Assembly: GCA_903813345.2 (NCBI GenBank)
Contig: CAIIXF020000012.1
Span: 33,494,572-33,558,571 of the forward strand
Length of the DNA: 64,000 nucleotides
Reading direction: 5' to 3'
From: Owenia fusiformis
Taxonomy: Eukaryota; Annelida; Polychaeta; Sabellida; Oweniidae
In this document: positions 1 through 64,000 of the stretch, piece by piece
Layout: every line of letters begins with the position of its first letter
Position numbering within the stretch: position 1 is the first letter of the stretch
Position numbers and translations under genes: made by a program
Notes under the pieces: model-generated
Databases searched by the model: none
The model's input: only the letters and a program-made list of their open reading frames with translations
What the model was told of the DNA's origin: nothing

Positions 1-3000
1 AACATGGCATAAGGCATAAAGCAATGATTGAAATACGTAAACTCCGATCTCAGCTCACCAATGCAGGTATGGAAGGGTCATGTTGCTATGAATGATTGTA
101 GCATTTTTTGCTCACACAGTAAGCATATGGAATAACTCGGCATCTTTCTGTCCATCAGTCCATCCATCCATTCGTCCATCAGTCTGTTCTTCTGCCAACA
201 TAGGTGGTACAAATTAAAACTGCTTTTTGTATTAAGAAGTGTCTACATTCATTTTTATGTCACCATCAGAAACGGTGACATATTTTTATAGTCTCCAAGT
301 TTTTTGTACCCTGTGTTCGGCATTTGGCATTCAAAAGTCGGCAGATTTTACAGGGTTTGGGTTGACAGATTTGATTTATATTTTATAGGCTGGTATCTTA
401 TGTATAGGAAAACTCAATATGACTGCTTAATTCAAAATGTCCCCATTTTGTGTAAAAAAAATCTTTGATGACTCAAATACAAGTAGTCGCATTTAGTTCA
501 AATATGCTGATGCCTAAGGACATAGAAGATTCAAGATGGCTGCTTATTTTCATAATTGCTCCAAATTTGTGGGTTTTTGTTAACTAGGATACCAGGTATC
601 AGACATGGTCTAAACTTAAAAAGCTGATGTCTTGTAGAAATAGGATTTCTATCCACTCAATTCAAAATGGCTGACATTTTTCATAAAAAATATAATTTCC
701 AGTATTTGTACAACGTCAATTTTTTTATATATAACAGCCGGCTGATTCTTGTTGTAATTTTTGAAAGACCAAAATGGCACATTTAGGGTTTTTTGCCAAG
801 TAGCCTACCTAGTAAATAGGTAGAATAAGATCTGAAAATGGCAATAAGTAGGACGATATTAAGGGGTCTTTGAGGGTAGGTAGATTAAAATGTGACAATA
901 AAATGGCAATTAGATAGAATAAATCACAGAATCAAAGTCACTTATAACTCCATACATTTCTATTATAGTATATATAAATTTTGAAGTCATTTATCATCCC
1001 AATATGTTCCCCTCCATCATTGCCGTGGTAGATTTTCAAAAATTTACGGTAGATTTTACGGCCGTTCGCATGGAATGAGTTTAAAAAAAAATTTGCGGTA
1101 GATTTCAAAAAAAATACGGGAGATTTTTTTACGGGAAAAAAATGGTATTTTTTACGGTAGTTTGTCATTTTTTTACGGAAAAACGAAAAATTTACGGTAG
1201 ATTCCCGTAAAAATACGGTAGGTTGGCAGGTATGAAAATGGCACATTTAGGGTTTTTTGCCAAGTAGCCTACCTAGTAAATAGGTAGAATAAGATCTGAA
1301 AATGGCAATAAGTAGGACGATATTAAGGGGTCTTTGAGGATAGGTAGATTAAAATGTGACAATAAAATGGCAATTAGATAGAATAAATCACAGAATCAAA
1401 GTCACTTATAACTCCATACATTTCTATTATAGTATATATAAATTTTGAAGTCATTTATCATCCCAATATGTTCCCCTCCATCATAGCCCAAGCTCAAGTG
1501 TTTTCTGTATATTGTATGGGGCATTTTGTTTCATATTAGAATATGCAAGATACTCTTATTTAGGACAAACTTTCATGTCAATCTTTTTAAAAGAATAATA
1601 AGCATTGTCACCTGATCCAATTTTGTTTGGCCAGTGATACCATGTCACACAAGTAGCAATAGCAGGGCACTTAGCATTAGTACTATAAAAACCAAACAGA
1701 TTTGAAACGTGGCAGGCTTTATACCACCAAGCCCCTTTGCGACTAACAGCACAATTGCTGGGCCATTTATCATGATCATGGTCCTTTGTACTAAATGCCA
1801 TACCATTATGGTAAGCAAGAGAGTCCCCTGCAGTTCCACTATAACCTCCAATTGTCAATGTGTAGTTATCGTGTTCATCACTCACATCAAATATGGAGTA
1901 TTCAGCATACCTTGTTAGACTCTGTGGGGGCCACATGGTAAGTTCAACTCTGAGTTTGTAATAACCTTGATATAATAACCCGTGAAGGTTGTCCAGGCCA
2001 ATGAAATGTTCACCTACAGGGCTACCAAACCCTCTTTGGTACTCTGTCCAGCCTCTGTAGAAATCAACACTCCCATCAAAGCGCCTTGCCATGTAGACAC
2101 ACCCACCACTACAGTACACTCTGAATGCATTTTGTCCCTGTGGTTGGATTATTCTAGCACCAGTAAAGCTTGTGTCATCACTACAGTCATGAGGCAAAGG
2201 TTCTGAAAAACAATAAAGGCATCATATAGTTAAAGTTTGAAACTAAATTTTTTTCATGACTGCATGAAGAAATAATAATAAATATTTGGTGAATGACTTT
2301 ATACTCATGTCTGGTAATCAGTAGAAATGAATGGAGGGGGAGTAGCTAATTTTCGCTAGAAAGTTCAACAAATTTTGAAGATATTAGTATTATACAATTG
2401 CCATTGTTATCCCATCGAACGAAGTTCGGAGGGATATAGGGAACGCCTCCGTCCGTCCGTCCGTCCGTCCGGGCAATAACTCAAATACCGTTGGCCCGAT
2501 TTTATTCATATTTTGTACACATATACCCTATGGAGATAGAAGTTCTGCTCGAAAGCCGATTTTCAAAATGGCCGCTCATTAAAAAATGGCGGTCATTTTA
2601 GTGCCGATTTTACAGTAATTTAAGTGCAATATGTAAAACTGTAATAGCAATATGTTTTAAATGTAAAAAAATTATTTAGGACATTGGTAAAGCTAGAAAT
2701 ATAGATATTAAAGAAGCACATGGCAGCCATCTTGAAAAATGGCGGCCTTTACTCATTATTTTACGATTTTTGCTGTAACTCAAGAAGTAGTGGAGCGATT
2801 TTGTTCATATTTGGTATGTGAATACTATAAGCATGGCACACTGTCTAATGACACTTTTGGTAGGAGGCGGCCATTTTGAAAAATGGTGGCCATTTTGAAA
2901 AATGGCGGCCATTTTAACATATTTTACTATAACTCAAAAAGTAGTGGAGCGATTTTGTTCATATTTGGTTTGTGAATACTATAAGCATGGCACACTGTCT

Positions 3001-6000
3001 AATGACACTTTTGGTAGAAGGCGGCCATTTTGAAAAATGGCCGCCATTTTAACGTATTTTACTATAACTCGAAAAGTAGTGGAGCGATTTTGTTCATATT
3101 TGGTATGTGAATACTATAAGCATGGTACACGGTCTAATGACACTTTTGGTAGAAGGTGGCCATTTTGAAAAATGGCCACCATTTAAATGTATTTTACTCT
3201 GCCTTTACTCGTTGTTTTACGATTTTTGCTGTCACTCGAAAAGTAGTGGAGTGATTTTGTTCATATTTGGTATGTGAATACTATAAGCATGGCACACTGT
3301 CTAATGACATACTTTTGGTAGAAGGCGGGCCATTTTGAAAAATTTCCACCATTTTAAAGTACTTTACTACAACTCGAAAAGTAGTAGAGCAATTTTGTTC
3401 ATATTTGGTATGTGAATACTATAAAGAAAAAAAGCATATTACTTCTTCTGATGACAACTTGGCTAGTGAGCAACCATTTTGAAAATGGTGACCTTTCTTA
3501 TGTGTGTTATTTTATGATATTTGCTATATATTTCAAAAATGCCAGCCATTTCTGTTCGATGGGATTCGCTACGCCTTGGCGTTGCCGTTGTTCTGGTTGG
3601 TTTTGTAAAATACATTTCCATATGTTATATAATAAATAATCGAAAATTATTAGAATTGAACTGAGGGGGGGGGGTAACGGAGGGGGGAGTGAACGGAGGG
3701 GGAGTATTGGAGTAATTTGTCTATAAGTCATATGATAAGAGATGTAACTTGACTTTATTTCCAATAACTCCAAATGTACCTAATTTTCACTTTCAGAGTT
3801 GTAACATCAACTTATTACTGAGTTATCGAGTTCAGTTTTCAAATACACAAATCCGTGGAGATTTATTTCACCTTAAAGACATATTACTCCCCCCTCCACC
3901 CCCTCCCTCCTCCCCCTCTGTTTCATTTCAATTATTTTTTATCTAACATATGGAAAGTTATTTTGAAAAACCAGCAATGGCATTAATTTTGTGATGAAAA
4001 CATCACTTTTAGTATATATTACAGGTCGTGTAGGCAATTGTCGCTTGATTAACATCAAAAACATTGACATTTGCATATTGGTGATGTTGCACCTTTTCCA
4101 ATAGATCTTATATCTAAGAAGCCTCTCGGTTAAAAAAAATCACAGAAGACCTTACATATTTCCCCGTGTACTGCCCCTATTAATTTAGGAATGCAATTGT
4201 AAACTTTCTGTTGAAAAAAAAATCTTGCGGACTTATTGCATTTTCTAGCAAAGATCAACCACTCCCCCTCCGTTCATTTCTTCCGATCATTGGGTGTGAT
4301 ACTACTAGACTAAAAATTGAAACAATTTATATAATAGTAGTAAGCTGTCTTACCTTCTGATTTACATTTACAATTGTCCTGTATCCTTTTCATTAAGTGA
4401 TCTTTTATAAGAATTACATCAGCTTTCATCTCATCAACTTTATCATTTACTTCTTCCACTTTATCATTTACTTCTTCCACTTCATCATTTACTTCTTCCA
4501 CTTTATCATTTACTTCTTCTACTTTATCATTTACTTCTTTCACTTCATCATTTACTTCTTCCACTTTATCATTTACTTCTTCTACTTTATCATTTACCTT
4601 TTCCACTTTTTCATTTACTGCATTCATTTGTTCTTCATCTCTTGTGCAGCAGTTTTGTGTATCAGATTTTAGTTCACTAAGCTGTGTGCTCAAGCGTGTA
4701 TCAAGGTTGTCAATATGCGTTTTCTTGCAAATTACAGGCCTCTTAGCTTTTTTCTGTAAATGAACATCCCTAACGAGGAATACTATTAACAATACTTTCA
4801 GATACATGATTGTAGCAAGATGTGTGTTGATCAGAAATTGACGGTGCTCAGTTAAAGTTGATTTACCTGAGAATGAAAACATTATTTTTACTTTGCATGC
4901 GTCATTAATTTAGCTGCTTTGCATCAAGCAGATAATTACGTGCAATATCACTGTGATTTAAAGACATACTATGCCTTCCAGAGCACCTTATCTATTGAGA
5001 AAAAGGTTATGTGAAAAGTGTGCCATTTCACTTTTGACATGAACAAATTGGGGCCGGGTCATTTGAATGTCCGCCGAAAAAACATATTTAATTTAGTAAT
5101 GGCTTTACCCCCCCCCCCCCTTCCTCCCTTCTTCTAGCGAAGGTCAAAATGTTGATTTGTACGCAGTAAAAACAAGTCAAAATGTTGATTTAAATACAGT
5201 GTTCAAGTACAAGCCCAGTATACAATATCTGCTAGTGCAATAAACAACACATATCAAGTTCACTTACATATCTGATGTGGCTGATACCTTAATTGATAAC
5301 TTATTATGTACATTTGTTTCAACATCGGGTGTATGATCCCATTCTCACACATTTTCTATATGCCCCAGGTCCTCTGATTTTTTATTACTCTGGCAACCAT
5401 TTATAATTGAGTATTTCTGTTATACCAAATATTTTTGGTGGAGTTAATCTTCATTGCATATTGTACATTTTGTGACAATAACAATAAAAAAGTTGAAAAC
5501 ACCTTTATTATTACCTGCATACGAGATATGTATTTAAATATATGCTATCGTATCATAAGGATTTATCTCAACAAATATGCTAATTAACAAGGGTAGAGCA
5601 TGTCTTTAACAGTACATTATTTAATCGATTGATTTTGCCTCATCATATTTATATATGAGGTAATACATTGAACAATAATGTTTGAAAGTATTTTTCATCT
5701 CTGATCTTAGTATGTACATATCATTTATAAAACCCATCACAACTATTTATTGCTCATTTAAAAGTATTGAATATTGTTTGAAGTTTTGTATTAAGTAATT
5801 TTCACCTCATCTCCATATTGACATATAATGAATAACATAGCAACATTGTAACTATTTATTGCTCATTTAAAAGTATTGATCTTTTTGTTTTTCATCCTTG
5901 TTAGATACCTTTCTACTTTTCATTATTTTTCATGTTGCATATCGTGACATATTGTTATATTAGTCCATTTTTTGTAGATGGTGTTTGGTGTTCGGGGGTA

Positions 6001-9000
6001 TAATATGGCATCGGTAACAAATTCTAGCAACTTCCAATAACTTAACAACCTTCAAATTTTTACTGTGAACATATATAAACATGTCATGAGTTCCAACATA
6101 TTTCTGCCAATAGCTGTTACAATGACAACATATTGAAGAAAGAGCCATCTTTCTTCAGCTTGATTATTCAAATTTTCCAATTTTTACAAAAACATCTCAT
6201 CTGTAGCAATTATTACACCTTTGTAACCATTTGCAGGTAGCAATTGGCAATTTTTTGTTTGTTTTGCTATGACTCGAATAGTAATGGTTCAATTTTGTTG
6301 AAATTTTATATGTGAATTCTTTGAAGCATTTTTTCCAATGACATGGTTAGTAGATTTTTCAAAACTGATTGTCATTTGTTATTTTACATTTTCCGCTATT
6401 CTGAGAAAGTAATAGAATGATGTTGTTGACATTTTATATATGATTACTCAGATGAATACTACACTGTCTAATGAAAATTCGGCAAATAGATGACAATTTC
6501 AAAAAATGGCAGCCATGGTCTTCTTTCTTATGATTTTTGCTGTAACTCGCAATAAAAATAGTAGGATGATTTTGTTCATATTTGATGAACAAATTTTAAT
6601 AAAAGTTTGAGGTTCAGACTTGTTAACTCAAACACTGGTTGCTGGATCTGGTTCAAATTTCATATGCTGATGCTTTAGCGACATAGGACCTCTGCTCACA
6701 AGAACATTTTTAAGCTGGCTGCTTATTTGACATTGTCACCAATTGTCACGAAGAATATAATTTTTGGTAACTTAAATGCAAGTCAAGGATTTGGTTCAAA
6801 TTTTGTGGGCTAATGTCCCATGTAATGACACCTTTGCTCAAGAACAAAATGGCTGCTAAATGTAGAATGGCTACCTTTATATACAGGGTCCAAAACTTTT
6901 CAGGCTGATGTCCTATGGACATGAAACTCTTCCAAAAGGAATTTGGAAGATTTTGCCAAAGGTAGACAATATTAGTACAGTACTCTTCTACTTCCTGCTC
7001 ATTTGTATTATGAAATTATAAAATGATGGGATTTGCTACTACAGGGAATTGCTGTTTTCTAGTTATTTATCCTTATTGTAGTAAACTCAGTTCTACCAGC
7101 AGCTAATGTTATCATGGATCCAAAGATGGCACCCCCTAGTGAACTTCAGGCAAAACTTTTACGACAAATAATCTTGACAGGGCTTTCGGATCACATTGCA
7201 AGGTATTTATTTCACATTTAAGAAAAAATTACTTAATTTCAGTAATTCCTCAAAATACTCAGTTGCTAAATTAGTAAGTTAAAGATTTGAAGACTTAGTG
7301 TGAATTTAGAAATATTATGAAGAATAGAGCATGAACAAGGACCATGCACAATTAGAGTTGAGTCATGTTGTGTTTAATTTTACTGTTTTGTTGGCAAATA
7401 TTTCAGGAAGCTTCCTGAACCAAGTACTGGAACAAATGAAGAAAAGAAAAAGTTAAAGATGGCATATCAGGTTAGTCTCATGTATTCTGTATGTAGGCCT
7501 ATCATTATTAATTTATTGTAATGTTACTCATTATACGACTTGTCAAACAGGTCACATACAGGCTCATAGCCAGGATTTGCCAGGGGGGTCACTTTTTCAA
7601 AATTTTCGGGGGTTCACTTTTGACTACTTATAGCCCAAAAAAGATCAAATCACTTGGAAAGTGCTCAGAATGGTGAAAAACTGCATGATTTTGAAAGGAT
7701 TTTTAGCCAGGGGTGTTTGCTCACCCCCCCCCCCCCCTCTGGGTACGAGCCTGACACAACAGAATTGTATTATTGTTTTCCTCTTACTTGAGAAGACAAT
7801 AGAATGTTGTTTATAGTTTGAATATTTACAACAATATTTTCAATATCCAGACTTAAGATTTAGGCCATTTTATCTGCACATACTTGAGCCTGATTAAGAA
7901 GTGCTGATATTTCCTGATCTTTGATTCATAATGTGTATGTTCAATTAATTTGCAGTTCCATTTTTTTCTCATTCTCAAGTGTGTCCAAATCAGATATAAA
8001 GTGGGTACAAACCTATTTTAAAATACAAGTGGTCACTCGGCTCACTTGCTTTAATGCTCGGGAGATCACTGCTCCATGCTCAATGGCATTGTGATTGTAT
8101 AGATTTGCATAATTGTTTTAGAGTATACACCTAGAAGAGCCTGTCTATATACATCCAAATTCTGTGCTATACAAACAAAACCATGAATATGTCGTCTTCC
8201 AAGACATCACTGAAACATCGAAACTCTACATGAGAGGTGAGATCAGCTAAATTGTATTTTCATAACTGCATATGATAAATGGGACAAACTTTGGATGAGA
8301 TGACGAGGATAAAGATAGAGAAAAGGGAAACTTCCAGAGAGAGGGTGCTAAGAAGGAAGAAAAACATCCAACACCTGGCACCATGTCAAGCGTTTATATA
8401 CTAACACATACCTATTAGTACTCACAAACTTAATGGCAGATAACGAATAGAACTGAAATGATATATACATGTAATGAATATATAAACTCGTACATGCATA
8501 ATTATATAAACCTGAAAATCATTACAGTATTCTCCAATATTGTAGGTGTTTCCGTGATAAAAGCAGAGTGGCTGCCAGTGTTTGTGCCCCATGGTTGTAC
8601 ATTTTCTAAGCCTCTTGACTCACCTCCGCCAAGATACGATAGTTCATCAGGGAATGTTCTCGCACACATGACGAGTACATTTGGTAAGTTCCCTGATATT
8701 TGTATTGGTATCATCCATAATCTTTGAAAAATCTCTTCTCTCACAAGTGGTGACATATAGTTATCTTCTCCAACTTTTTTATGGATGATATTTGCTGTTT
8801 TGATGTTTCATTGGCAGCATTCGGTGGTTAGCTATTAGCATCTGTAACAAATTGCAGATGGTGACATTATGCATGTTAATGCCTTGTTAAACTTGCCTTT
8901 AAAGATGATGCTCTGAATGATAATAATGGTAAGTGAGACATTTTGCTTCATTGGTATAAGTTGTATGTTAATAGAGACACTTTATTACAGGGGTTCGTTG

Positions 9001-11057
9001 TTTGGAAATCCCTGCAGTTGAGCTGGAGTACCCAGAGTGTATAGACCGCGTCAAGTATTTTGCTAGGTTCCAATTGGTATATGTTGTATGTTAATAGAGA
9101 CACTTTATTACAGGGGTTCGTTGTTTGGAAATCCCTGCAGTTGAGCTGGAGTACCCAGAGTGTATAGACCGCGTCAAGTATTTTGCTAGGTTCCAATTGG
9201 TATATGTTGTATGTTAATAGAGACACTTTATTACAGGGGTCCGTTGTTGGGAAATCCCTGCAGTTGAGCTGGAGTACCCAGAGTGTATAGACCGCTTCAA
9301 GTATTTTGCTAGGTTCCCATTGGTATATGTTGTATGTTAATAGAGACACTTTATTACAGGGATTCGTTGTTGGGAAATCCCTGCAGTTGAGCTGGAGTAC
9401 CCAGAGTGTATAGACCGCGTCAAGTATTTCGCTAGGATCCCATTGGTATATGTTGTATGTTAATAGAGACACTTTATTACAGGGGTCCGTTGTTGGGAAA
9501 TCCCTGCAGTTGAGCTGGAGTACCCAGAGTGTATAGGCCGCGTCAAGTATTTTGCTAGGTTCCCATTGGTATATGTTGTATGTTAATAGAGACACTTTAT
9601 TACAGGGGTCCGTTGTTGGGAAATCCCTGCAGTTGAGCTGGAGTACCCAGAGTGTATAGGCCGCGTCAAGTTTTTTGCTAGGTTCCCATTGGTATATGTT
9701 GTATGTTAATAGAGACACTTTATTACAGGGATTCGTTGTTGGGAAATCCCTGCAGTTGAGCTTGAGTACCCAGAGTGCATAGACCGTGTCAAGTATTTCG
9801 CTAGGTTCCCATTGGTATATGTTGTATGTTAATAGAGACAAATTATTACAGGGGTCCGTTGTTGGGAAATCCCTGCAGTGGAACTTGAGTACCCAGAGTG
9901 CATAGACCGTGTCAAGTATTTCGCTAGGTTCCTTTTAGAGGGACTTGTATGTCCGAAGCTGAAGTGCTTCAGAGAGGATCTGCTGTCTGTGCCTGCCACC
10001 ATGAATAAGTCATGGGCCAAGTAAGTAATTATGTAGCACATATCTTTGAGATGCATTGACAAAATATAGCTACTTAAGCAATTCATTGTGTATATTTCGA
10101 TTTGCAATTTGTATTAGTCATATTCGTTTAAGACATGTGCCATAACACATAGAGAAAAACCTGTCTAATTCAAATGCCACTTGGAGTGAGCTGAAGTGAT
10201 CTGATTGGCTGGTGTTCACATTTTGAGTTTTTAACATGGAATTATGTAACAGTATATGGGATTGAAAAAAGTGTTTAAATTGACAGTTGTTCAGATGGAT
10301 TTACTGGTTTTACTGTAAACATTTGATGTTTATTTCTTTCAGATTGCAGCCACGTACAGAGAGTCTACTGAAAGAATTATTAACAGAACAAGTTGACTGC
10401 AAAACTAAACTGTTAAAGATCTGGGAAAGTCAACCTGCATGTAAGTCACTTGATTTTGTAGCTAATGATGTTAATACTTGATTGTGAATAAAGTGTTTTG
10501 TGAATGTTGGAAGCTAGGTACTGTACTATATAAAGAGACCAAAATCAAATAAAAAAAAGACTCAATTAGGTATAATGGGACACCAAGGACAATGCTACAC
10601 TTCTCTCCTAGTTAAGAAATGTGACTTTAGATTATAATTGGATACTTATACAAAAATGGGATGTATTAAACTTGACCCTAGACTATTTTAGTAAATGGCT
10701 ATTTTCCAATACAATATGTACTGAAGCATATGCTACATCTCTTCTAAATCTGTTGATACCTAACAAGGTATCAATGTAGGTTAGAATTTTATTTCACTTC
10801 TTTAATGTAACTAGACTAATTTGGCAACAGTTGTTTCTTGTATTTGATCTAAGCCTGATTGTCCGTTGTTTGGAAACATACATGGTACACCCCTTTTTAA
10901 TGGACTCACCTGAAATAAACACTAGTCAACATAGCTATTTTTTCGTACACTTCAAGAGGATCATTTTTTTTATATTTCAGATTTATTATCTGCCTACATG
11001 CAGTGGATCCCACAATCTCGGCATTTAGAACTAGAAGCCATGTGGCCACCATTATAG
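1..11057 (+). CDS. DHX37: DHX37-like DEAH-box RNA helicase, copy A, C-terminal exons (5' part lies outside the window)
   Basis: Eight exons follow consistent GT/AG phases: 1-66, 7082-7202, 7407-7470, 8122-8236, 8546-8683, 9852-10020, 10343-10440 and 10981-11057 (stop TAG 11055-11057). The joined product matches the C-terminus of DHX37 (Dhr1 in yeast), a nucleolar DEAH/RHA helicase of small-subunit ribosome assembly. Recognisable stretches are [83 protein letters not shown] and the final MQWIPQSRHLELEAMWPPL. This is the region after the helicase core (end of the helicase-associated and OB-type domains plus the C-terminal tail). No stop or frameshift was seen in these exons, so this may be the tail of the working gene. 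A whole FReD gene lies on the other strand in the 67-7081 intron. The identification rests on recalled family sequence, not a search. Confidence 0.85.
67..1555. other. Helicase intron A, 5' part: dispersed repeat and FReD1 3' flank
   Basis: No gene seen. It begins with a GTCCATC-type microsatellite (about 150-185). A dispersed repeat head follows (from about 271: GTGACATAT, then CTCCAAGTTTTTTGT, then CGGCATTTGGCATT), and then modules that each contain an ATGGCTG-type phrase (about 420-720). Nearly the same sequence follows the equivalent exon in units B (from 20140), C (from 32110) and D (from 58782), so it belongs to the ancestral duplicated unit. A 250-bp direct duplication specific to copy A sits at 773-1485. 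The FReD1 stop codon follows at 1556. Confidence 0.6.
773..1485. repeat. 250-bp direct duplication flanking a TACGGTAGATT-rich spacer
   Basis: Bases about 773-1021 and 1237-1484 are near-identical direct copies (both begin AAATGGCACATTTAGGG and end at TTCCCCTCCATCAT). Between them lie about 215 bp rich in repeated TTTACGGTAGATTTT-like phrases. The other three units have only one copy of the 250-bp block and no spacer. Confidence 0.8.
1556..2202 (-). CDS. FReD1 exon 2: fibrinogen-related domain of a secreted lectin-like protein
   Basis: This last exon of gene FReD1 encodes a complete fibrinogen-like C-terminal domain of about 213 residues, as found in ficolins, tenascins, tachylectin 5 and mollusc FREPs. 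These are extracellular recognition proteins that often bind acetylated sugars on microbes. Visible hallmarks are MARRFDGSVDFYRGW, GFGSPVGEHFIGLDNLHGL, YKLRVELTMW, LTIGGYSGTAGDSL, YHNGMAFSTKDHDHDKW (acidic calcium-site loop followed by the NCAV cysteine) and a C-terminal SFKKIDMKVCPK. The splice acceptor AG is at 2204-2203 on the minus strand. It completes a phase-1 codon from exon 1, and the joined frame is 1101 nt (366 residues). The ATG in the PHDCSDD region is internal, not the start. The ligand is unknown. Confidence 0.93.
2323..4277. repeat. Inverted-repeat element in the FReD1 intron
   Basis: Arms of about 40-50 bp (left 2323-2367, right about 4233-4277) share ATGAAYGGAGGGGGAGT and then GCTAGAAA in inverted orientation. 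Inside are a G-rich run (about 3663-3710) and a C-rich run (about 3889-3918) that could pair. The same pair of arms occurs in the introns of FReD2, FReD3 and FReD4, so the element predates the unit duplication. Copy A is longer because it carries the insertion at about 2409-3588. Confidence 0.65.
2409..3588. mobile_element. Modular repeat insertion specific to copy A
   Basis: Units B, C and D read directly from CATTGTT into GGTTTTGTAAAATACATT here. Unit A has about 1.18 kb inserted. Its ends carry inverted TCCCATCGAAC (left about 2412-2422; right as GTTCGATGGGA about 3555-3565). Flanking TTGCCATTGTT and TTGCCGTTGTT may be an imperfect 11-bp target duplication. The interior has a CCGT microsatellite (about 2450-2470) and at least five modules of 135-167 bp, each with AGTAGTGGAGCGATTTTGTT and an ATGGCGGCCATTTTG phrase. 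No coding capacity was seen. Confidence 0.65.
4354..4807 (-). CDS. FReD1 exon 1: signal peptide and nine-heptad coiled coil
   Basis: This first coding exon starts at ATG 4807-4805 (MYLKVLLIVFLV, a short secretory signal peptide). An upstream in-frame ATG at 4882 would place 25 hydrophilic residues before the signal, so I prefer the inner one. After the signal come a basic segment with one Cys, a NCCTRDEE cysteine pair, and nine heptads of the type VEEVNDK with Val at both core positions. The exon ends in QDNCKCKSE with donor GT at 4353-4352. Valine in both core positions, with cysteines at each end, suggests a disulfide-linked parallel oligomer, probably a trimer, presenting the FReD heads as in ficolins. 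The heptad block is DNA-repetitive (21-bp units), which explains a spurious open frame on the opposite strand. Confidence 0.88.
4883..7081. other. Helicase intron A, 3' part: FReD1 upstream region and older modular repeat
   Basis: No gene seen. Bases 4883-5150 are the FReD1 5' flank (minus strand) with a C-run at about 5108-5120. I could not identify a TATA box or start site with confidence. From about 5946 to 7062 lies an older copy of the modular repeat family. It has a GTGACATATTGTTATATT head, modules with TGCTGTAACTCG and GATTTTGTTCATATTTG, and the tail GATGGGATTTGCTACT next to the 7082 exon acceptor. Units B, C and D match it closely. Confidence 0.55.
8960..9860 (+). repeat. 123-bp tandem array duplicating an intron-exon junction (8 copies)
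   Basis: The splice acceptor and first part of the helicase exon that starts at 9852 are repeated with an exact 123-bp period. Acceptor AGs end at 8990, 9113, 9236, 9359, 9482, 9605, 9728 and 9851. Each unit contains TTTATTACAG, the start of the exon as far as KYFARF, and then intron sequence TTGGTATATGTTGTATG. Upstream copies run into a stop (TTAATAG) and lack a donor, so only the last acceptor gives a working exon. The period is a multiple of three, which keeps a long meaningless frame open on the minus strand (8948-9841). Unit B has one exon plus a partial relic (27188-27240); unit C has one. Confidence 0.92.
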
Positions 11058-11720
11058 GACTGACAGTGTTGCTATGACAACACAGTTTATGCATTGGGTC
11101 CCTCAATCTCGGCACTTAGAAATAGAAGCCATGTGGCCACCATTATAGGACTGACAGTGTTGCTATGACAACACAGTTTATGCATTGGGTCCCTCAATCT
11201 CGGCACTTAGAACTAGAAGCCATGATGCCACCATTATAGAACTGACAGTGTTGCGATGGCAACACAGTTTATGCAGCATATCTCACAATCTCGTCACTTA
11301 CTAGAAGCCATGTGGCCACCGTTATATGACTGACAGTGTCACTATGGCAACAAAGTTTATGCAGCGGATCGTACAATTTCGGCACTTAGAACTAGAAGCC
11401 ATGTGGCCACCAATCACTATAGGACTGAAAGTGTCACTATGGCAACACGGTTTATGCAGTAGATCCCTCAATCTCGGCAGTTAGAACTAGAAGCAGTGTG
11501 GCCACCATTATGGGACTGACAGTATTGCTATGGCAACATGTTTTTTGCAGTGGCAAAATCTCGGCACTTAAAACTAGAACAAGGTGGTCATCAATATAGA
11601 CAAGTGGCAGTGTTGCTATGGCAACACTGTTTTTACAGTGGATCCTACAATTATGGCACTTAAAACTAGAAGCCATATGGTCAACGAAATAGGACTGGCA
11701 GTATTGCTATGGAAACACAG
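10981..11720 (+). repeat. About 91-bp tandem array of the helicase terminal exon end, copy A
   Basis: The last exon's 3' end (ATCTCGGCA...TTAGAACTAGAAGCC), its stop codon and about 35 bp of 3' flank (CTGACAGTGTTGCTATG) are repeated about eight times. The CTCGGCA phrase recurs at 11017, 11108, 11199 and 11290, a 91-bp period, with growing divergence to about 11720. The first copy is the real exon; later copies would lie in the 3' UTR. Confidence 0.88.
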
Positions 11721-12061
11721 TTTAAAACATTGTAAATAATGTTGAATGACAGGCAGTGGTTATGATTGGGTGTTGCATGTACATACTAGGCATACTAGGA
11801 AAAATTATTTGAATATGAAATGAGAAATTATTAAAAACAAATTAATGTTTCATTTGTGTTATGTAACTGTATATTAATTTTAATACTTCATACCAATCGA
11901 ACTCCTATATTTGGTAACTTAATGCCTGTCAGTTTGTCAACTAAAAATCTTCATGTTCTCATTTTCTGTCAACATGTACCAATGTTTCTTTTCATCAGAC
12001 ACTAGGATTTATATCAAAACAAAAGTGGTAATTCCATGTCACTGTTATAACTCCATGTATT

Positions 12062-12489: not shown

Positions 12490-12745
12490 ATTTAATTCAA
12501 TCATATATCATCCCAATATCTTGTCCTTCACCATAGCTTCTATCCAAGTATTCTCTGTTTATTGTGTGGGACATTTTGTATCGTATTAAAATATTCAAGA
12601 TTATAGGAAAAACTTTCATGTCGCTCTTTTTGAAAGAAAAATAATGATTGTTTGGTGAGCCAATTTTGTTTGGCCAGTATAACCATGACACACATTGAGG
12701 ACAAGCAGCACTGATAGCATTATTACTATGAAAACCAACACAAAG
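12490..12745 (-). pseudogene. Relic of a FReD 3' exon end, copy 1
   Basis: On the minus strand this reads GFHSNNAISAACPQCVSWLY, then WPNKIGSPNNHYFSFKKSDM, then KVF. That is the last third of a fibrinogen-related domain, followed by 3' flank similar to that of the four complete FReD genes. The final KVCPK is lost by a change after KVF. Upstream FReD sequence is absent. Equivalent relics precede the linker region in the next units (30062-30325, 54000-54243). It is a truncated second FReD paralogue that was part of the ancestral unit. Confidence 0.75.
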
Positions 12746-13985
12746 AATAAAGGTATGTAAGTGCTTGTATTGATCAATTAGGGCTGGGAAGAAAGGGAAG
12801 AGGAATGGAGCAGATTTTGGAATTCTAAATTTATAGAACTAAGAACTAATTGACTTATTTCAGTTTGTAAAGATTTCCAGTCTGAAATTGTAAAATTGAT
12901 TAAAAATCATGTTATTTCGAAAGACAGCTGAACTTTTACAACATTAACTTGCAAGAAGTTGTTACGCTGATGTGAAGTAGTAAATTGTGTTCTTTATTGG
13001 ATCATTAAATAACTTTCGTTTCAGTGGTCCAGGAAAAGGACAAAGACTCTAGTCAGAAGAAAACAAAAATTCCCAGGGTGCAACTTGATGATTATTCTGT
13101 TCTCCTTGAAGATGATGAGTTGTCGGAGCAACATGGTGGTCTTGGTAACAACCAATCAGATGAAGAGCTCTCAGAGCCTGTTGACGATGATACTTTTGTA
13201 AGATTATCAATAATTTCTACAATAACTAGATTACTGATAAACGTTGAGATTATAACGTTCGTCAAAATTGGAAATGAAATTAGATAAAATTAAATTTGTG
13301 TCAAGACTTCAGAAAGTTTTCTACAAATGATAAAGATTATCTCCAAAATGAGATAATGTTCACTGGTTTGCCATCTTTTTACCCAACTGAAAATCTATGC
13401 ATTCCACTTGAAGGTTTATACAAGTCTTGTTGTATTCAATTTATTGTATTCTATGATGGTATGATCAATTATATTGCCCAAGGAATAATTCCAATATTCT
13501 GGCCCTCATAGAATAACCTCTACTTATTTTATTCTGGGATGATGTACATTTTTGTATCTTGGGAGTCAGGTGACTCACAGAACCCGATTTATGTCCTTCC
13601 ACTCTACTCCATGTTACCAACATATAAACAAGCCAAGGTAAATATCTTATCTTATTCATATTGCTTCCTGTTCAGATTAATTTTGAGTTTTTGCATTTAT
13701 TTGGGTTCGATCAATGTTTTTAGTGATTTGCTTTTTGTTTTTGAGAAAAATAGCTAGATGACCCGAATAAGTGATTCCTATATGCTGGGATTGTCGGAGT
13801 CAACAGGAAGGGCAAAGCAAGCCATATGATACAAAAAATCAATTCTGTTAAAGATAAGTTCACAGTTTCGGGATTGCTGTGCATTTGTATGAAATATAAC
13901 TACAGTATATTCTCAAAGTTATTCTGGAAAATCCTATGTATTCTGTATATTGTAGGTGTTTGAGGCGCCCCCTGATGGCCATAGA

Positions 13986-51300: not shown

Positions 51301-51766
51301 GGACAATGCTAAACTTCTCTCTTAGTTTAGATCCTCTCGAAATGTGACAGTCTCTAAATTAGTAGATTACTCATATATAACAGGGACGAAACTTGACCTT
51401 AGACTCTTTAGTAAGTGGTTGTTTTTCATTACAACATCTACTTGGGCAAAAGCTAGAATTCTTCAAAATCTGTTAATACCTAACAATAGGTATCAATATT
51501 GATAAAATTAGATTTTTCAATTCTGTATCGATCTGACTAGATAATTTGGCAACACTTGTTTCTTGTATTTAATCTAAGCCTTGGCATACCCCTTTTTAAT
51601 GGACTCACCTGTAATAAACACTTTGGTCAGTTGGTCAACATAGCTATTTTTCTCGTACACTTCAAGTGGATTATTTTTTTATATTTCAGATTTATTATCT
51701 GCCTACATGCAGTGGATCCCACAATCTCGGTATTTAGAACTAGAAGCCATGTGGCCACCATTATAG
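48359..51766 (+). pseudogene. DHX37: DHX37-like helicase copy C, C-terminal exons (open, but upstream exons lost)
   Basis: Exons 48359-48479, 48816-48879, 49545-49659, 50098-50235, 50533-50701, 51063-51160 and 51690-51766 (stop TAG) have the same lengths as in copy A and no visible stop or frameshift. They encode DPKMAPPSELQAKLLRQII, EEPVYIHPNSVLYKQDHEYV, PVFVPHGCTFSKPLDSPPPR, PECIDRVKYFARFLLEGLV and the LELEAMWPPL end. The copy is called a pseudogene because its linker and RecA2 exons are deleted and its array exon (31954) is frameshifted. A 52-bp duplication repeats the donor after 50701. Confidence 0.82.
50684..50780 (+). repeat. 52-bp duplication of an exon end and its splice donor
   Basis: GAATAAGTCATGGGCCAAGT with the following AAGTATTTATATAACACAT occurs twice, 52 bp apart (GGGCCAAGTAAG at 50696 and 50748). 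Unit C therefore has two candidate donors for this exon; A and B have one. Confidence 0.88.
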
Positions 51767-53425: not shown

Positions 53426-53437
53426 CCCTTATGTATT

Positions 53438-53999: not shown

Positions 54000-54243
54000 T
54001 TTATCATCTCAATATCGTGTCCTTCACCATAGCTTCTCAGTTTTTTTTGTGTGGGACATTTTGTATTGTATTAGAATATTCAAGATAGTCTTATTTAGGA
54101 CAAAATTTCATGTTGCTCTTTTTGAAAGAATAATAATGATTGTTTGGCGAGCCAATTTTGTTTGGCCAGTATAACCATGACACACATTGAGCACGAGCAT
54201 GAAAGATAGCATTATTACTATGAAAACCAACACAAAGAATAAA
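54000..54243 (-). pseudogene. Relic of a FReD 3' exon end, copy 3
   Basis: The minus strand reads GFHSNNAI, then AQCVSWLYWPN, KIGSPNNHYYSFKKS and a CPK-like end. Third copy of the relic seen at 12490 and 30062, in the same place relative to the helicase linker exon. Confidence 0.72.
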
Positions 54244-55929
54244 GGTATGTAAATGCTTGTATGGATCAATTGGACCTGGGAAGTGGAATGGAGCAGATTT
54301 TGGGACTTGTCTTCGGAATTCTAAATTTATAGAAATAAGAACTTATTGACTTATTTCAGTTTGTAAAGATTTCCAGTCTGTTATCATATAATTGATTCAA
54401 AATCATGTTATTTTGAATTTTTATATATCATGTAATTCAAGTGAACTTTTACAACATCAACTTTCATGTCATATCTTAAAAATATTGTTTTATAGATTTA
54501 CTACCGCTCTCAAGAGGGCAATTCAATCAAAATGCCAATTTTCTTTCAAAATATTGTCCATCTGTTGATGGATGTTATATCATATGTTTATTTAGAAGAA
54601 TTGCTACTCTGATTGGGAGTACGTAAATTTTTCACTTCATCGAATTGTAAAATAACAGGTTTCAGCTGTCCAGGAAGAGGACGAAGAATCTAGTCAGAAG
54701 AAAACAAACATTCACAGGGTGCGACTTGATGATTATTCTTTTCTCCTTGAAGATGATGAGTTGTCGGAGCAAGATGGTGGTCATGGTAACAACCAATCAG
54801 ATGAAGAGCTCTCAGAGCCTGATGACGATGATACATTTCTAAGATTATCAATAATTTAATACTGCTACAGGTAAGGTTGCATCTGATTTTACACTTATAA
54901 AAAGTCACAAGGGTTTAGCCTCAATTTAGGGAGCCAACGTTAAATATAGGTGAGGCAAAGATGAATAGGTGAGACAAAACTGAATTAAAGCGATACTATA
55001 CTTAGTTTCAGTTGAGAGAATGTTAGAAATATTAATGATAATCTTTGGCAAGGCTGTTGCCTCATCTGCCTCATATATGGCTAGGCCCATGCTAGAATTT
55101 AAATCCATTAAAGGTAATTGAGAGAATTTAAACTAATAGTTTGGCATAGTGGTTTCTATTCATTGACCAAGATTACAAGCCATGTGCATATAATGTCGAC
55201 CTATTTGATCTTGGATGACTGTCATTGAAATTATCCAACTTTTCTCGGTTTTGGGAATTAGGTGATTTTGAAGTCAGTCACATTTGTATATCTCTGAGAA
55301 TGTTAAGTATGTTGTGTAGAACTCACCTTGTGAGTGGTGTATTCTTCATGTATAATTTGGCTGTACATGTTAAGTGAGTAATGTTTCTGTATTTTTCATC
55401 GACAAATGTGTTGCAGGTTGTATTCTTCAGCTGTATTCAATGATTAATTTGAACTGTTCTCTTCACCAGAGATCACTAGACGTCCAGTAGATGACCTTCT
55501 GCTTCTAATGAAGGTAAGTGAAAGAGGAGGAAATACCCAGAATTCATAGGTGAACCAATTTCCGTACATGTAAAAATGAACATACAGAAAATCTTCTTTC
55601 TACTGAGATTGGTTCATATTTTAATTCTGGGATATTTCCCTATTATTCTATGATTCCATGAACACTTGAGTGATTCCTCTTTATATAGATGTCATCTTTT
55701 ACTGACTGTTTCTTGAAAAAATACTGTATGTCACTGTAGTTTTAATAAATCAAAAAGTTTATTTAGAAGCTTTCCTTATGTTTTTGCAGGACCTCAATAT
55801 TGATAAAGTGGTGAATTTCCCATTTCCCAGCCCTCCAGATAGACTAGCTTTGAAAGTAGGCTTTTTTTAATTTCCAAGTTTATTTCAAACAATCATTGAA
55901 TGTTTAAAATAGATTGAATTCCCAAGGTT

Positions 55930-56345
55930 AATAGATTAACATTAGTGGCAAGAAAGTGAAATGATTTTATAAAAATGTATTGAGTCATTTCATCGTAGAT
56001 TGTATTACATTTTTGAGCTCAATGTTTTCTGTGTTTGAGTATTATGAATAAATGTAGTTCATTTTAGTGATGAAAAGCTGTTCCTCCCATGTTGTTATCT
56101 GCCAATTTTGCATAGATATGATGTACCAATACAAGTCACTTATCAACCAATCAAAATAGGACAGAAATGCTACCAATTCATGCAAAATACCAATCACAGT
56201 TAAACCTGTGCAATTCAAACACTTTTTTGCTACCCCTTAAAGGTGTTCCACTTGGGAGGTTCTCTCCACTTGCAGACGTTCATTTAACATTATGCATCGC
56301 ATGAAAATACCCTTTCACATTCAACAGTATTAAGTATTAAGTCAT
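55930..56345. other. Sequence in helicase intron D absent from copy B
   Basis: Copy B runs from ATTAGTGGTATTTTCCATTT to GGTAATATGTAGTGGGACTC. Copy D has about 400 bp between the equivalents. No inverted ends or coding sequence were recognised, so it may be an insertion in D or a deletion in B. Confidence 0.5.
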
Positions 56346-57529
56346 TTGGTTATATGTAGTGGGACTCTGAAAAGTGTTATAAATATTGAAGTGTCACTTT
56401 ATAGGTCTCACAGCAGAATGTATTTGATATTTCAACAAAACAAACTATTGATATTTGAGCATACAGATACCTTGACATTGATATAATTCATTTCAGGCTG
56501 CTGAAAATTACTGCTATCACTAGAGGCCTTGGAGGCCCCTGCTAAACCTCAAAAACCCACACGAAAATCCCAGAGTGCTGAAATGGACAATCCTAGTGCA
56601 AGAATATCTCCTTTAGGGCGTGCCATGGCATGTTTCCCAGTGGCTCCTCGATTTGGCAAGATGCTATCTCTTGGTATGTAAACACTTAAAATACATAAAA
56701 CATACTAGCTGTTATATATGCAAAATCATTGCAAAAGTGTAGTTTGAATTACTTCCGATAGGTGACACCAAGGTTTTTCTTTGAACATTCTAAACTAAAA
56801 AAGGAAAATTTGAACAAATATTCACTCTCAAAATAATTTTAAATCTGAAATGGCATTTTTTTAGGCCATCAACACAACCTTCTGCCCTATGTGATAGCCC
56901 TAGTCACTACCCTGTCTGTGCAAGAACTTTTTGTGGAGATAGGAGAGCCACCTATTGATGAAGCTGAGAAGCAAGCTTGGAAGAATCGTGTTGGAAAAAT
57001 TACAATTGTTCAAAATATATATGACTGATGAATTATTATGTCACTATTAGAAGAGGTGACATGGTGACCTGTCACATGTTGACAGGTAACATGTTGTTAT
57101 GGTCTCCAACTTTTTTGTGGGCTGTGATCGGCATTCGGCGTCTATAACAAATGCCAGGTGGGGACATTTTGCATGTCAATGCCTTGTTTTAAATGGCGAC
57201 ACAAAAACATGCTTTAATATGTTGTTATGGTCTCCAACTTTTGTGAACTGTGTTCGGCATTCGGCGTCTGTAACAAATGTCAGCTGGGGCCATCGTTGTA
57301 GAATAGAGTGTATGGGAAATGAATGGCAAGTCTACAACTATATTGACACCTATATTTTAAACCAGTTCTGAACTCACTCTTAGCCTTGTGATATATCCTG
57401 GTAATTATTTTGCTCTTGTAAAATGCTTATGGTTTTTTTTCTGTGCATAATTTTTGTAAAATAAGTAAAAAGATAAAGTAATAAACTTGAGCTATCAGTC
57501 ATCCAGACCACCTCATTTTGTACAATATT

Positions 57530-58715
57530 ATTGATACATTTTCAGGGCCAAAGTGCATCGCTAGGTGACCTGATGGTGCTTTTGAAGGCAGTAGGAGCAT
57601 GTGAATACTGTTGTACTGTATTATTAATACATTTTCAGGGCCAAGGTGCATCGCTAGGGGACCTGATGGTGCTTTTGAAGGCAGTAGGAGCATGTGAATA
57701 CTGTTGCACTGAATTATTAATACAATTTCAGGGCCAAAGTGCATTGCTAGGGGACCTGATGGTGCTTTTGAAGGCAGTAGGACCATGTGAATACTGTTGT
57801 ACTGTATTATTAATACATTTTCAGGGCCAAAGTGCATTGCTAGGGGACCCGATTGTGCTTTTGAAGGCAATAGGAGCATGTGAATACTATTGCACTGTAT
57901 TATTAATACATTTTCAGGGCCAAAGTGCATTGCTAGGGGACCTGATGGTGCTTTTGAAGGCAGTAGGAGCATGTGAATACTGTTGTACTGTATTATTAAG
58001 ACATTTTCAGGGCCAAAGTGCATTACTAGGGGACCTGATGGTGCTTTCGAAGGCAGTAGGAGCATTTGAATACTGTTGGACTGTATTATTAATACATTTT
58101 CAGGGCCAAAGTGCATTGCTAGGGGACCTGATGGTGCTTTCGAAGGCAGTAGGAGCATGTGAATACTGTTGTACTGTATTATAAAAACATTTTCAGGGCC
58201 AAAATGCATTTGAGCATAGGAGCATTTGATTACTGTTGTACCGTATTATTTCATGGCCAAGGTGTATTGCTAGGTGACCTGATGGTGCTTTTGAAGGCAG
58301 TTGATGCATGTAGATACTGTTGTACTGTATTATTAATACATTTTCAGAGCCAAAGTGCATTGCTTGGGGACCTGATGGTGCTTTTGAAGGCAGTAGGAGC
58401 ATGTGAATACTGTTGTTTTGTATTATTAATACATTTTAGGGCTAAAGTGCATTGCTAGGGGACCTGATGGTGCTTTTGAAGGCAGTAGGAGCATGTGAAT
58501 ACTGTTGTTTTGTATTATTAATACACTTTGGGGCTAAAGTGCTTTGCTAGGGGACCTGATGGTGCTTTTGAAGGCAGTAGGAGCATGTGAATATTGTTGT
58601 ACTGTATTATTAATACATTTTCAGGGCCAAAATGCATTGCTAGGGGACCTGGTTGTGCTTTTGAAGGCAGTAGGAGCATGTGAATACGCTGGCTGCTCCA
58701 CAGACTTCTGCTTCC
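57530..58715 (+). repeat. 93-bp tandem array of the helicase intron-exon junction, copy D (13 units)
   Basis: Acceptor-like starts recur at about 57541, 57636, 57729, 57822, 57915, 58008, 58101, 58192, 58250, 58345, 58436, 58528 and 58622. Most units are 93 bp and encode [20 protein letters not shown] without a stop. One unit (58192) is internally deleted and several have lost the CAG (TTTCATGG, TTTTAGGG, CTTTGGGG). The long open frames on both strands (for example 57499-58209 minus) are products of the 31-codon period. Confidence 0.92.
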
Positions 58716-58781
58716 AACATGGCATAAGGCATAAAGCAATGATTGAAATACGTAAACTCAGATCTCAGCTCACCAATGCAG

Positions 58782-59823: not shown

Positions 59824-60473
59824 TTATTTAGGGCAAACTTTCATGTCAATCTTATTAAAAGAATAATAGTTATTGCTAGGTGAGCCAATTACGTTTGGCC
59901 AATGATACCATGTCACACACTCAGCACTAGCAGGGCACTTTGCATTAGAACTATAAAAACCAAATAGATTTGAATTGTGGCAGGCATTATACCACCAAGC
60001 CCCTTTGTTAATAACAGCACAATTATAGCCAGATGATTTATCATGATCACGGTCCTTTGTGGTAAATGCCATACCATTGTGGTAAGCAAGAGAGTCCCCT
60101 GCAGTTCCAGTATGCCCTCCAATTGTCAGTGTGAAGTTATCGTGTTCATCACTTACATCAAATATGGAGTATTCAGCATACCATGCTAGACGATGTCTGG
60201 GCCACATGGTAAGTTCAACTCTGAGTTTGTAATAACCTTGATATAACAAACCATGAAGATTGTCCAGGCCAATGAAATGTTCACCTACAGGGCTACCAAA
60301 CCCTCTTTGGTACTCTGTCCAGCCTCTGTAGAAATCAACACTCCCATCAAATCGCCTTGCCATGTAGACACAACCACCGCTACAGTACACTCTGAATGCA
60401 TTTTGTCCCAGTGGTTGGATTATTCTAGCACCGGTAAAGCTTGTGTCATCGCTACAGTCATGAGGCAAAGTTA
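59824..60473 (-). CDS. FReD4 exon 2: fibrinogen-related domain
   Basis: A complete fibrinogen-like domain (MARRFDGSVDFYRGW, GEHFIGLDNLHGLLYQGYYK, LTIGGHTGTAGDSLAYHNGM, acidic loop TTKDRDHDKSSGYNCAV with one extra residue compared with the other copies, ending KVCPK). Acceptor AG is at 60475-60474. Joined to exon 1 (62148-62577) it gives 1080 nt, 359 residues. LLYQGYYKLRVELTMWP is shared with FReD1, while FReD2 and FReD3 share LVTQGNYKLRVELTMWP, suggesting two sub-lineages or gene conversion. Confidence 0.93.
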
Positions 60474-62147: not shown

Positions 62148-62577
62148 CTTCTGATTTACATCGTGAATTGTCCTGTATCCTTTTCAAGTGATCTTTTATA
62201 AGAGTTACATCAGCTTTCATCTCATCAACATTATCATTTACTTCTTCCACTTTATCATTTACTTCTTCTACTTTATCATTTACTTCTTCCACTTTATCAC
62301 ATACTTCTTCTACTTTATCAGTTACTTCTTCTACTTTATCATTTACTTCTTCCACTTTATCATTTACCTTTTCCACTTTTTCATTTACTGCATTCATTTG
62401 TTCTTCATCTCTTGTGCAGCAGTTTTGTGCATCAGATTTAAGTTCACTAAGCTGTGTGCTCAAGCGTGTATCTAGGTTGTCAATATGCGTTTTCTTGCAT
62501 GTACTATGCTTCTTGGCTTTTTTCTGTAAATGAACATCTCCAACGAGGAATACTAAGAACAATATTTTCAGATACAT
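62148..62577 (-). CDS. FReD4 exon 1: signal peptide and eight-heptad coiled coil
   Basis: It starts at ATG 62577-62575 (MYLKILFLVFLVGDVHL, secretory signal). Eight heptads include TDKVEEV and CDKVEEV variants, and the last reads NDNVDEM. It keeps the NCCTRDEE pair and ends QDNSRCKSE, so one of the two distal cysteines of FReD1 remains. Donor GT is at 62147-62146, phase 1, matching exon 2. Confidence 0.88.
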
Positions 62578-62652: not shown

Positions 62653-64000
62653 TATTTTTACTTTGCATGCATCATTAATTTAGCCGCTTTGCATCAAGCA
62701 GATAATTATGTGCAATATGACTGTGATTTAAAGACATGCTATACCTTCCGGAGCACAGTATCGACTGAGAACAAGGTTATGTGAATAGAGTGCCATTTCA
62801 CTTTTAACATGAACAAATTGGGGCCGGGTCAACATTTGAATGTCCGCCAAAAAAACATATTTAATTTAGTAATGGCTTTACCCCCCCCCCTCCCCTCTTC
62901 TAGCGAAGGTCAATATGTTGATTCGTACGCAGTAAAAACAAGTCAAAATGTTGATTTGAATACAATGTTCAAGTACTAGCTCAGTATACAATATCTGCTA
63001 GTGCAATAAACAACACATATCAAGTTCACTTACATATCTGATGTGGCTGATACCTTAATTGATAACTTATTATGTACATCGGGTGTATGATCCCATTCTC
63101 ACACATTTTCTATATGACCCAGGCCCTCTGATTTTTTATTACTCTGGCAACCATTTATAATTGAGTATTTCTGTTATACCAAATATTTTTGTTGGATTTA
63201 ATCTTCATTGCATATTGTACATTTTGTGACAATTTCAATAAAAAAAGTTGAAAACACCTTTATTATTACCTGCATACGAAATGTGTATTTAAATATATGC
63301 TTTCGTATCATAAGGACTAATCTCAACAAATATGCTAATTAACAAGGGTAGAGCATGTCTTTAACAGTACATTATTTAATCGATTGAATTTGCTTCATCA
63401 TATTTATATATGAGGTAATACATTGAACAATAATGTTTGAAAGTATTTTTCATCTCTGATTTTCGTATGTACATATCATTATTAAACCCATCACAACTAT
63501 TTATTGCTCATTTAAAAGTATTGAATATTGTTTGAAGTTTTGTATTAAGTCATTTTCACCTCATCTCCATATTTACATATAATGAATAACAACGCAACAT
63601 TGTTACTATTTATTGCTCATTTAAAAGAATTGATCTGTTTGTTTTTCATCCTTGTAAGTTACCTTTCTACTTTTCATTATTTTTCATGTCGCATATTGTG
63701 ACATATTGTTATATTATCCAACTTTTTGTAGATGTTTGGCATCGGTAACAAATTCTAGCAACTCCCAATAACTTAACAACCTTCAAATTTTTACTGTCAA
63801 CATATATAAACATGTCATGAGTTCCAACATATTTCTGCCAATAGCTGTTACCATGGTAACATATTGAAGGCCGAAAGAGCCATCTTTTTCAACTTGATTA
63901 TTCAAATTTACCAATTTTTACAAAAACATCTTATCTGTAATTACACTTTTGTAACCATTTGCAGGTGGTGACATTTTGGCAATTTTTACTTGTGTAATAT
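62653..64000. other. Helicase intron D after FReD4, to the window end
   Basis: No gene seen. It matches 4883-6280 of unit A closely: FReD 5' flank, C-run (about 62881), AT-rich stretch and the start of the older modular repeat (about 63690). The TA site used by the mariner in unit C is empty here (CATATATAAACATG at about 63800). Confidence 0.6.

Follow-up and report, generated by a model that had tools for sequence, protein, structure and literature searches.

DHX37, like Dhr1 of yeast, is a DEAH-box helicase that acts in the small-subunit processome, and a gene nested in the intron of another is exemplified by F8A, which lies in intron 22 of the factor VIII gene and has extra copies outside it, with no tandem amplification of half of the host exons known. 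Among invertebrate immune genes, the FREPs of molluscs are described as carrying one or two immunoglobulin (Ig)-superfamily domains beside a fibrinogen domain (PMC7588048), and the Sp185/333 genes of sea urchins are two-exon immune genes in tandem segmental copies, flanked by tandem repeats at which exchange may be promoted (PMC3091723). A locus of the annelid Owenia fusiformis brings such elements together. The 64,000 nucleotides analysed here (the window; C12:33494572-33558571, C12 being the label used for contig CAIIXF020000012.1 of the 498-Mb assembly searched) form the left third of an array of ten tandem units, each joining the 3′ half, or less, of DHX37 to a two-exon, fibrinogen-domain lectin (FReD) gene that lies antisense in one of its introns. 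A diversifying set of lectin genes sits here inside a helicase gene, which confirms and extends what had been observed in an original prediction made from the window, and leaves the interpretation offered there, selection on the lectin genes with part of the helicase carried along only as baggage, half right.

With 40 kb of left and 140 kb of right flank added to the window, the DHX37-FReD array covers ~197 kb, from about -5738 to 191547 in window coordinates (negative values lying to the left of position 1), and its units are lettered A to J from left to right. The original prediction had described a four-unit tandem duplication; the tandem structure stands, and the number rises to ten once the flanking assembly is checked for further units. 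The units are ~80-90% alike over long stretches in a self-comparison of the window, and they follow the predicted order, with exon E9 and its fragment array, the antisense FReD gene, E10-E15, a 3′ relic of a FReD gene, and E1-E8 as the linker to the next E9. That the linker belongs to every unit does not hold, since it is missing before C, F, G, and I and only partial in D and H.

The host gene is identified by its exons. The E9 peptide matches mouse (6o16) and human (7mqa) DHX37 in phmmer at E-values of 7e-18 and 2e-16, with the next helicase at 0.26, a frame-by-frame search of window positions 5001-20000 returned more DHX37 exons in order, and 6o16 or 7mqa is the best match for the DHX37 exons, ahead of other DEAH helicases. 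In copy A, E2-E15 read in frame to a stop at 11057, given a small exon, E10b, at 7407-7470, and the cassette carries the Pfam domains Helicase_C, HA2, OB, and DHX37_C (PF23362, E=1.6e-30). The 5′ part of the helicase, for which a check of the flanking assembly had been proposed, was found in the 10 kb to the left of the window, where the exons of the DHX37 5′ core (Walker A, DEAH motif, and on to about mouse residue 323) lie in order, upstream of and outside the in-frame join of E2-E15. A tested 5′ stretch of 143 residues shows 83-96% identity at C12:33487670-33488843 and 39-58% at its other genome matches, and no second set of 5′ core exons lies within the array. The one DHX37 for which 5′ exons were found is the gene that has copy A as its 3′ half. 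A second full-length DHX37 was considered and rejected, as none of the other candidates (19 of 19 scored) is a high-identity match to the tested 5′ exons, in an assembly that may have gaps and with the left-flank pieces L001-L002 outside the search.

All ten units carry a FReD gene with a coil exon and a fibrinogen (FBG) exon, antisense in the intron between E9 and E10. The first of these two coding exons encodes a hydrophobic segment, recognized by eye after the ATG, and a heptad-repeat coil; the second encodes the domain that in FReD A matches Pfam Fibrinogen_C at E=2.4e-49 (168.6 bits against a cut-off of 22). A Pfam scan of FReD A (E<=0.001) returned no Ig domain, coil-type matches appearing only below the cut-off. 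The FBG exons are open in 10/10 units (642-651 nt), each with an AG acceptor and all with one intron phase, and the number of 21-bp repeats in the coil varies; in a simple motif count, A, B, C, and D have 7, 3, 11, and 7 heptads, and the count reaches 13 in J. The coil-exon donor (phase 1 in A) is kept in eight units and lost in C and H, so that the splice is uncertain in these two; the prediction of four open FReD genes with consistent phases is thus borne out for the open FBG exons and their shared intron phase, and uncertain for the splice in C. In the coil exons of C (39076-39570) and H (144699-145196), a nearby GTATGA would hold the phase.

The case for selection on the FReD genes lies in how changes are distributed along the domain. 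Seven distinct copies were counted, leaving out the near-identical E, G, and I (B, E, G, and I differ by 0-4 nonsynonymous, N, and 0-1 synonymous, S, changes). Between distinct copies, the ratio of nonsynonymous to synonymous divergence (dN/dS) over the whole domain is 0.36-1.09, and the codon-position spectrum of differences across the domain comes out almost flat in the four pairs examined, a pattern that alone would look neutral. By codons, dN/dS is 0.33 at 1-85, 0.74 at 86-140, and 1.37 at 141-218, and the 216 segregating changes divide into 91N:13S in the last 78 codons (141-218) against 76N:36S in the earlier ones (Fisher P = 6e-4). Measured against the kappa-weighted neutral share, codons 141-218 have an excess of N (P = 0.008) and the earlier codons a deficit (P = 0.04). 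Furthermore, 10 of the 13 columns with at least four residues fall at 147-202, around the segment aligned to the CHVSNL stretch of ficolin-2, which we take to be the acetyl-binding pocket. The ten open FBG exons and the contrast between the two parts of the domain support selection for a varied lectin set, as the original prediction had proposed in placing selection on these genes: the first part of the domain is constrained and the ligand-face part diversified. In the genome as a whole, the FReD family has at least 150 matches. Nineteen further relatives of the subfamily, at 65-81% identity (17 aligning across the full domain), are spread over nine contigs, most as single copies and several within ~3 Mb of a contig end, and include C1:2083785, C6:2335496, C8:1197142, C11:35477459, and C12:2729824; by blastn, three of four dispersed relative loci examined show coil-exon similarity to unit A, and the fourth does not.

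The helicase copies are incomplete and damaged to varying degrees. Counting A, and taking at least 70% of an exon as a match, E9-E12 occur ten times each (E9 cut in B and E), E13 and E14 eight times each (E14 partial in D), and E1-E8 have four to seven matches each, extra E3 fragments in J included. E15 is present in A, B, C, D, F, G, H, and I. The stops, frameshifts, splice losses, and deletions predicted for B, C, and D were seen across all three. B has lost its E2 and E12 acceptors and has a stop in E5, an E9 cut after nt 116, and a 4-nt deletion in E11; C is without E1-E8 and has a 1-nt deletion in E9, with E10-E15 open; D is without E2-E4 and has stops in E5 and E13, a 1-nt deletion in E7, a truncated E8, and an E14 with its start missing, its E9 being open. 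Each of B, C, D, E, F, and J is broken somewhere within E9-E14, J by a stop in E9 (E13-E15 were not found in that unit), and I has lost the AG of its E12 acceptor. G, which is without E1-E8, and H, which is without E1-E5 and broken in E7, are both open over E9-E15 with canonical splice sites, and G is lesion-free there. The copies retain introns and most splice sites, and the retained introns rule out an origin as processed pseudogenes.

Changes private to single units document this decay as a present process. The N:S tests on both genes use NG86 counts with kappa-weighted binomials, which is not a site model; in the helicase counts the non-homologous tails of D (E8, E14) and of B and E (E9) are masked, E10b is left out throughout, and E15 of unit I is counted minus its last 9 nt. 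With stops taken as N, private changes amount to 6N:12S in A, 8:12 in J, 3:4 in I, and 1:1 in G, against 5:1 in B, 3:0 in C, 18:5 in D, 1:0 in E, 4:1 in F, and 8:4 in H, with a further 8:4 shared by B and E only. Pooled over B, B+E, C, D, E, F, and H, they give 47N:15S, a neutral proportion, which supports the conclusion that the broken copies now evolve neutrally and agrees with the decay that had been predicted.

Differences between the copies record another history. Over nine pooled pairs, dN/dS is 0.17 in the true frame against 1.05 and 1.50 in shifted frames, a description and not a test, as the pairs share branches, and P against neutrality ranges from 9e-4 to 7e-15 across 13 pairs, both sets being hand-picked from 45. 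The synonymous excess is seen in A-J (22N:51S) and also holds in pairs without A, such as G-H (13:31, P = 1e-9 against neutrality), F-H (18:33), and H-I (17.5:25.5). Among C, F, G, H, I, and J, dN/dS is 0.11-0.26 in 14 of 15 pairs and 0.39 in I-J; the skew is weaker where B, D, or E is involved (0.30-0.49; 0.74 in B-E). In this all-pair set E1 was out of frame, so that pairs among A, B, D, E, and J carry spurious stops and some extra counts; the private-change, binomial, and pooled-frame counts use the correct E1 frame, and the tail masking applies to these counts. Shared variants in E11 and E12 are likewise mostly synonymous (19S:5N, judged in the codon of A only); many set A and D, joined by F or G, apart from B, C, H, I, and J, and others cross that split, as expected if units recombine.

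Interior halves dead since birth would put a neutral branch in every pair, and the low ratios of the 14 pairs exclude this for those pairs. At least two lineages of the 3′ half must then have been working while they diverged and, given the single 5′ half found, the choice lies between work on different haplotypes and use as alternative 3′ ends. Unit J bears on this choice. Its private changes are 2N:1S in E1, 1N:10S in E2-E8, and 5N:1S in E9-E12, so that E2-E8 was constrained, yet the unit has a stop in E9 and no E13-E15 found; the stretch is unlikely to be used in cis and was presumably working elsewhere until recently, which favors different haplotypes over alternative 3′ ends. These comparisons indicate that the 3′ helicase halves diverged while coding and then decayed recently, and that, judging from substitution patterns, the helicase half was not mere baggage for most of its history. 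Decay ever since duplication is contradicted by the helicase N:S counts. Conversion of interior copies by A was also considered as a source of low dN/dS; by reasoning, it would leave recent neutral differences only, and the counts would go unexplained.

The spacers between units carry the trace of the founding event. Nine FReD 3′ relics are found in eight of the nine spacers; none was found between G and H. At the tandem junction, the relic on the left meets, on the right, DHX37 sequence from -5738 of A, beside the end of the exon preceding E1 (as read in B). Among the eight relic spacers compared, the alignment runs across the relic/DHX37 junction in every pair (28 of 28), and a junction common to them points to a single founding junction for the units; the match of A begins at the relic edge in seven of the eight, the exception being J. 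Beside the junction, longer blocks give 69-79% identity between A and interior copies and 81-99% among interior copies, yet deeper in the unit A differs from the other copies by 0-15% in introns, which indicates that sequence has passed between the first cassette and the interior ones after the founding. The intron before E1 (-5738..-5026), where the 69-79% identity is seen, may keep the age of the founding duplication. Exchange is also evident between C and H, which differ by 0-6%, mostly 0-2%, to the right of a point inside the FBG exon and by 5-23% over the remainder of the exon and the flank next to it on the left, a breakpoint that implies recombination between units. Blocks of B/E, B/G, B/I, and C/H are 96.8-99.5% alike.

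Possible starting points for such exchange may be provided by repeats of exon fragments. Tandem arrays of partial exons, each with a splice acceptor or the 3′ end, involve at least four exons of DHX37 (Walker A, E9, E13, and E15). The repeated fragments of E9, E13, and E15 are 93, 123, and 91 bp long and cover either the acceptor with the start of the exon or the end of the coding sequence; E9 fragments number up to 71 in H, and the Walker-A exon has 16 local matches, with an array at -11329..-9161. Smaller exon-fragment arrays involve the exon for mouse residues 118-149 and E3 of J.

The explanation that we place first, though with a little less than even confidence, is that the 3′ halves were captured by unequal exchange from diverged working haplotypes. 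The founding copy would have ended in a second FReD gene downstream of the ancestral gene, the source of the relic, and selection would favor a varied lectin set. Interior halves would have been captured, by unequal crossing-over or conversion, from working first cassettes on other haplotypes, a process that the E9, E13, and E15 fragment repeats may aid, and halves other than the first, being without a 5′ half, would now be mostly passengers. Copies captured from working cassettes would look selected, and their differences would record old allelic divergence instead of decay in place. Several observations weigh against this explanation. Synonymous divergence between working alleles would have to reach ~0.10 per site (A-J, E2-E8) or more, an extreme value except in a hyperdiverse species or between old haplotypes. 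A second haplotype was not observed, and C138, the single unplaced contig tried as a gauge of heterozygosity, gave no allelic partner. Intron divergence shows no rise around the FReD gene (medians of 0.047-0.108 over the unit), although long-term balancing selection there would predict one, which argues against a simple balancing-selection peak. Lastly, the E9-E15 changes private to G, H, and I (7N:9S, P = 0.01 against neutrality) also fit present use of those cassettes. In a broader form, which we consider possible but rather unlikely, the 3′ half would be an exchangeable cassette of which diverged working versions coexist, on old lectin-linked haplotypes or as alternative 3′ ends, in the manner of the major histocompatibility complex.

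The main rival takes the second of these routes, with the single DHX37 5′ half spliced to several units, such as A, G, and H, as alternative 3′ cassettes. The open E9-E15 and canonical splice sites of G and H would suit it, as would the synonymous character of the deep helicase differences and the contrast between the 7N:9S of G, H, and I (G and H alone, 4N:5S) and the 19N:3S of broken units over E9-E15 (Fisher P = 0.012), a grouping picked after the lesions were known. It is nonetheless unlikely, as redundant copies should each be weakly constrained, E9 of G and of H lies ~106 and 130 kb past the stop of A, so that splicing must skip the last exons of A, unit I is without its E12 acceptor, and E2-E8 of J was constrained in a unit that is unlikely to be usable in cis now.

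An assembly artefact of alternative haplotypes had been raised in the original prediction; in the form weighed here, diverged haplotypes or collapsed repeats would have been placed in tandem. Blocks 96.5-98.3% alike ~58 kb apart, and 97.4-99.5% between C and H, do fall in the two-haplotype range of a diverse species, but a single copy of the tested 5′ exons is present, and the similar blocks are arranged as a mosaic instead of one colinear second copy. Simple concatenation of two haplotypes is for these reasons unlikely, and an assembly artefact as a whole seems quite improbable. The proposal that the helicase half was duplicated only alongside FReD, decaying from then on, accounts for the lesions in B-F and J, in E7 of H, and in the E12 acceptor of I, for the neutral private changes of broken units, and for the higher dN/dS of pairs with B, D, or E. 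It predicts, however, dN/dS of ~0.5 or more for non-A pairs, whereas 14 of the 15 compared fall well below this and shifted frames alone exceed one; with the differences outside A mainly synonymous, as in G-H and in E2-E8 of J, and with G and H open over E9-E15, this part of the original interpretation is not upheld, and we regard it as highly improbable. That the FReD copies are likewise unselected, their frames open through youth, is hardly credible, for the flat spectra and whole-domain ratios that would allow it stand against ten FBG exons without stop or frameshift despite 216 segregating changes in seven distinct copies, and against the gradient of dN/dS along the domain.

Features of the array within the window (window coordinates; exon numbers refer to DHX37)
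Feature	Position	Strand	Basis
A E9, end	1..66 (exon start -90)	+	phmmer to 6o16/7mqa; splice, frame
FReD A FBG exon with stop	1556..2202	-	Pfam Fibrinogen_C; open
FReD A first coding exon: hydrophobic start, heptad coil, phase-1 donor	4354..4807	-	frame, splice
A E10	7082..7202	+	DHX37 alignment, splice, frame
A E10b, small frame-closing exon (end at 7488 also in frame)	7407..7470	+	frame
A E11	8122..8236	+	DHX37 alignment, splice, frame
A E12	8546..8683	+	DHX37 alignment, splice, frame
123-bp array, 8 copies, E13 acceptor and exon start	8949..9932	+	TRF
A E13	9852..10020	+	DHX37 alignment, splice, frame
A E14	10343..10440	+	DHX37 alignment, splice, frame
A E15 and stop, end of intact gene	10981..11057	+	DHX37 alignment, splice, frame
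91-bp array, 8 copies, E15 coding end and 3′ flank	10998..11724	+	TRF
FReD 3′ relic, A/B spacer; right edge is tandem junction with DHX37 sequence	12604..12738	-	alignment
B E1-E8 (starts 13024, 13548, 13956, 14498, 15118 with stop, 15508, 15835, 16177)	13024..16343	+	alignment to A
B E9, cut after nt 116 (remainder near 20082-20165)	17222..17337	+	alignment to A
FReD B FBG exon	21074..21728	-	similarity; open
FReD B coil exon	22668..23055	-	similarity
B E10-E15 (E11 4-nt deletion, E12 acceptor lost)	25134..28429	+	alignment to A
FReD relic, B/C spacer	30172..30311	-	alignment
C E9, 1-nt deletion; E9-fragment array on left	31954..32109	+	alignment; tandem repeats
FReD C FBG exon	36901..37546	-	similarity; open
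FReD C coil exon, usual donor lost	39076..39570	-	similarity
C E10-E15, all open	48359..51766	+	alignment to A
FReD relic, C/D spacer	54091..54230	-	alignment
D E1, E5 (stop), E6, E7 (1-nt deletion), E8 (truncated)	54665..57000	+	alignment to A
D 93-bp array, E9 acceptor and exon start	57518..58687	+	TRF
D E9, open	58625..58781	+	alignment to A
FReD D FBG exon	59824..60470	-	similarity; open
FReD D coil exon	62148..62577	-	similarity

Two further elements lie in unit C. A LINE-like element on the reverse strand (43720-47523) has a 910-residue reverse-transcriptase frame (RVT_1) and a second frame, and the block around it is 99.5% identical to its counterpart in unit H. A 132-bp minisatellite at 32714-36139 runs in both orientations, and a copy related to it lies near 201-204 kb in window coordinates.

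The locus suggests that diversifying selection on a nested gene can pull half of an essential host gene along through successive duplications. If the haplotype origin is true, the locus is a clock, set within a slow housekeeping protein, for how long immune haplotypes stayed apart; if alternative use is true, it is a gene with interchangeable 3′ halves; and under the exchangeable-cassette reading, the end of a housekeeping gene would be reshaped by an immune-gene array. Among the titles listed in searches of open-licence PMC papers, none concerned a FReD array within a host gene or a tandem duplication of DHX37. Like F8A in the factor VIII gene, the FReD gene is an intron-nested gene duplicated with flanking intron; tandem amplification of half of the host exons, seen here, is not known there. 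Copy A aligns exon by exon to mouse and human DHX37 and has the same domains, but the 3′ half occurs here ten times, in part or whole, with E9, E13, E15, and the Walker-A exon in local fragment arrays. Invertebrate FReDs, FREPs, and ficolin-like lectins, as far as the source describes them, are alike in the fibrinogen domain, the large family, and the diversity of the ligand face (PMC7588048); FReD A differs from the FREPs of Biomphalaria in that no Ig domain was found and in its heptad coil, whose 21-bp repeat number varies in the array, and the genes here lie antisense within a housekeeping gene, part of which was amplified along with them. With Sp185/333, the array shares tandem two-exon immune genes and repeats that possibly promote exchange; no host gene is mentioned in the abstract on that cluster, and the repeats are microsatellites at the edges there and exon-fragment minisatellites inside the host gene here (PMC3091723).

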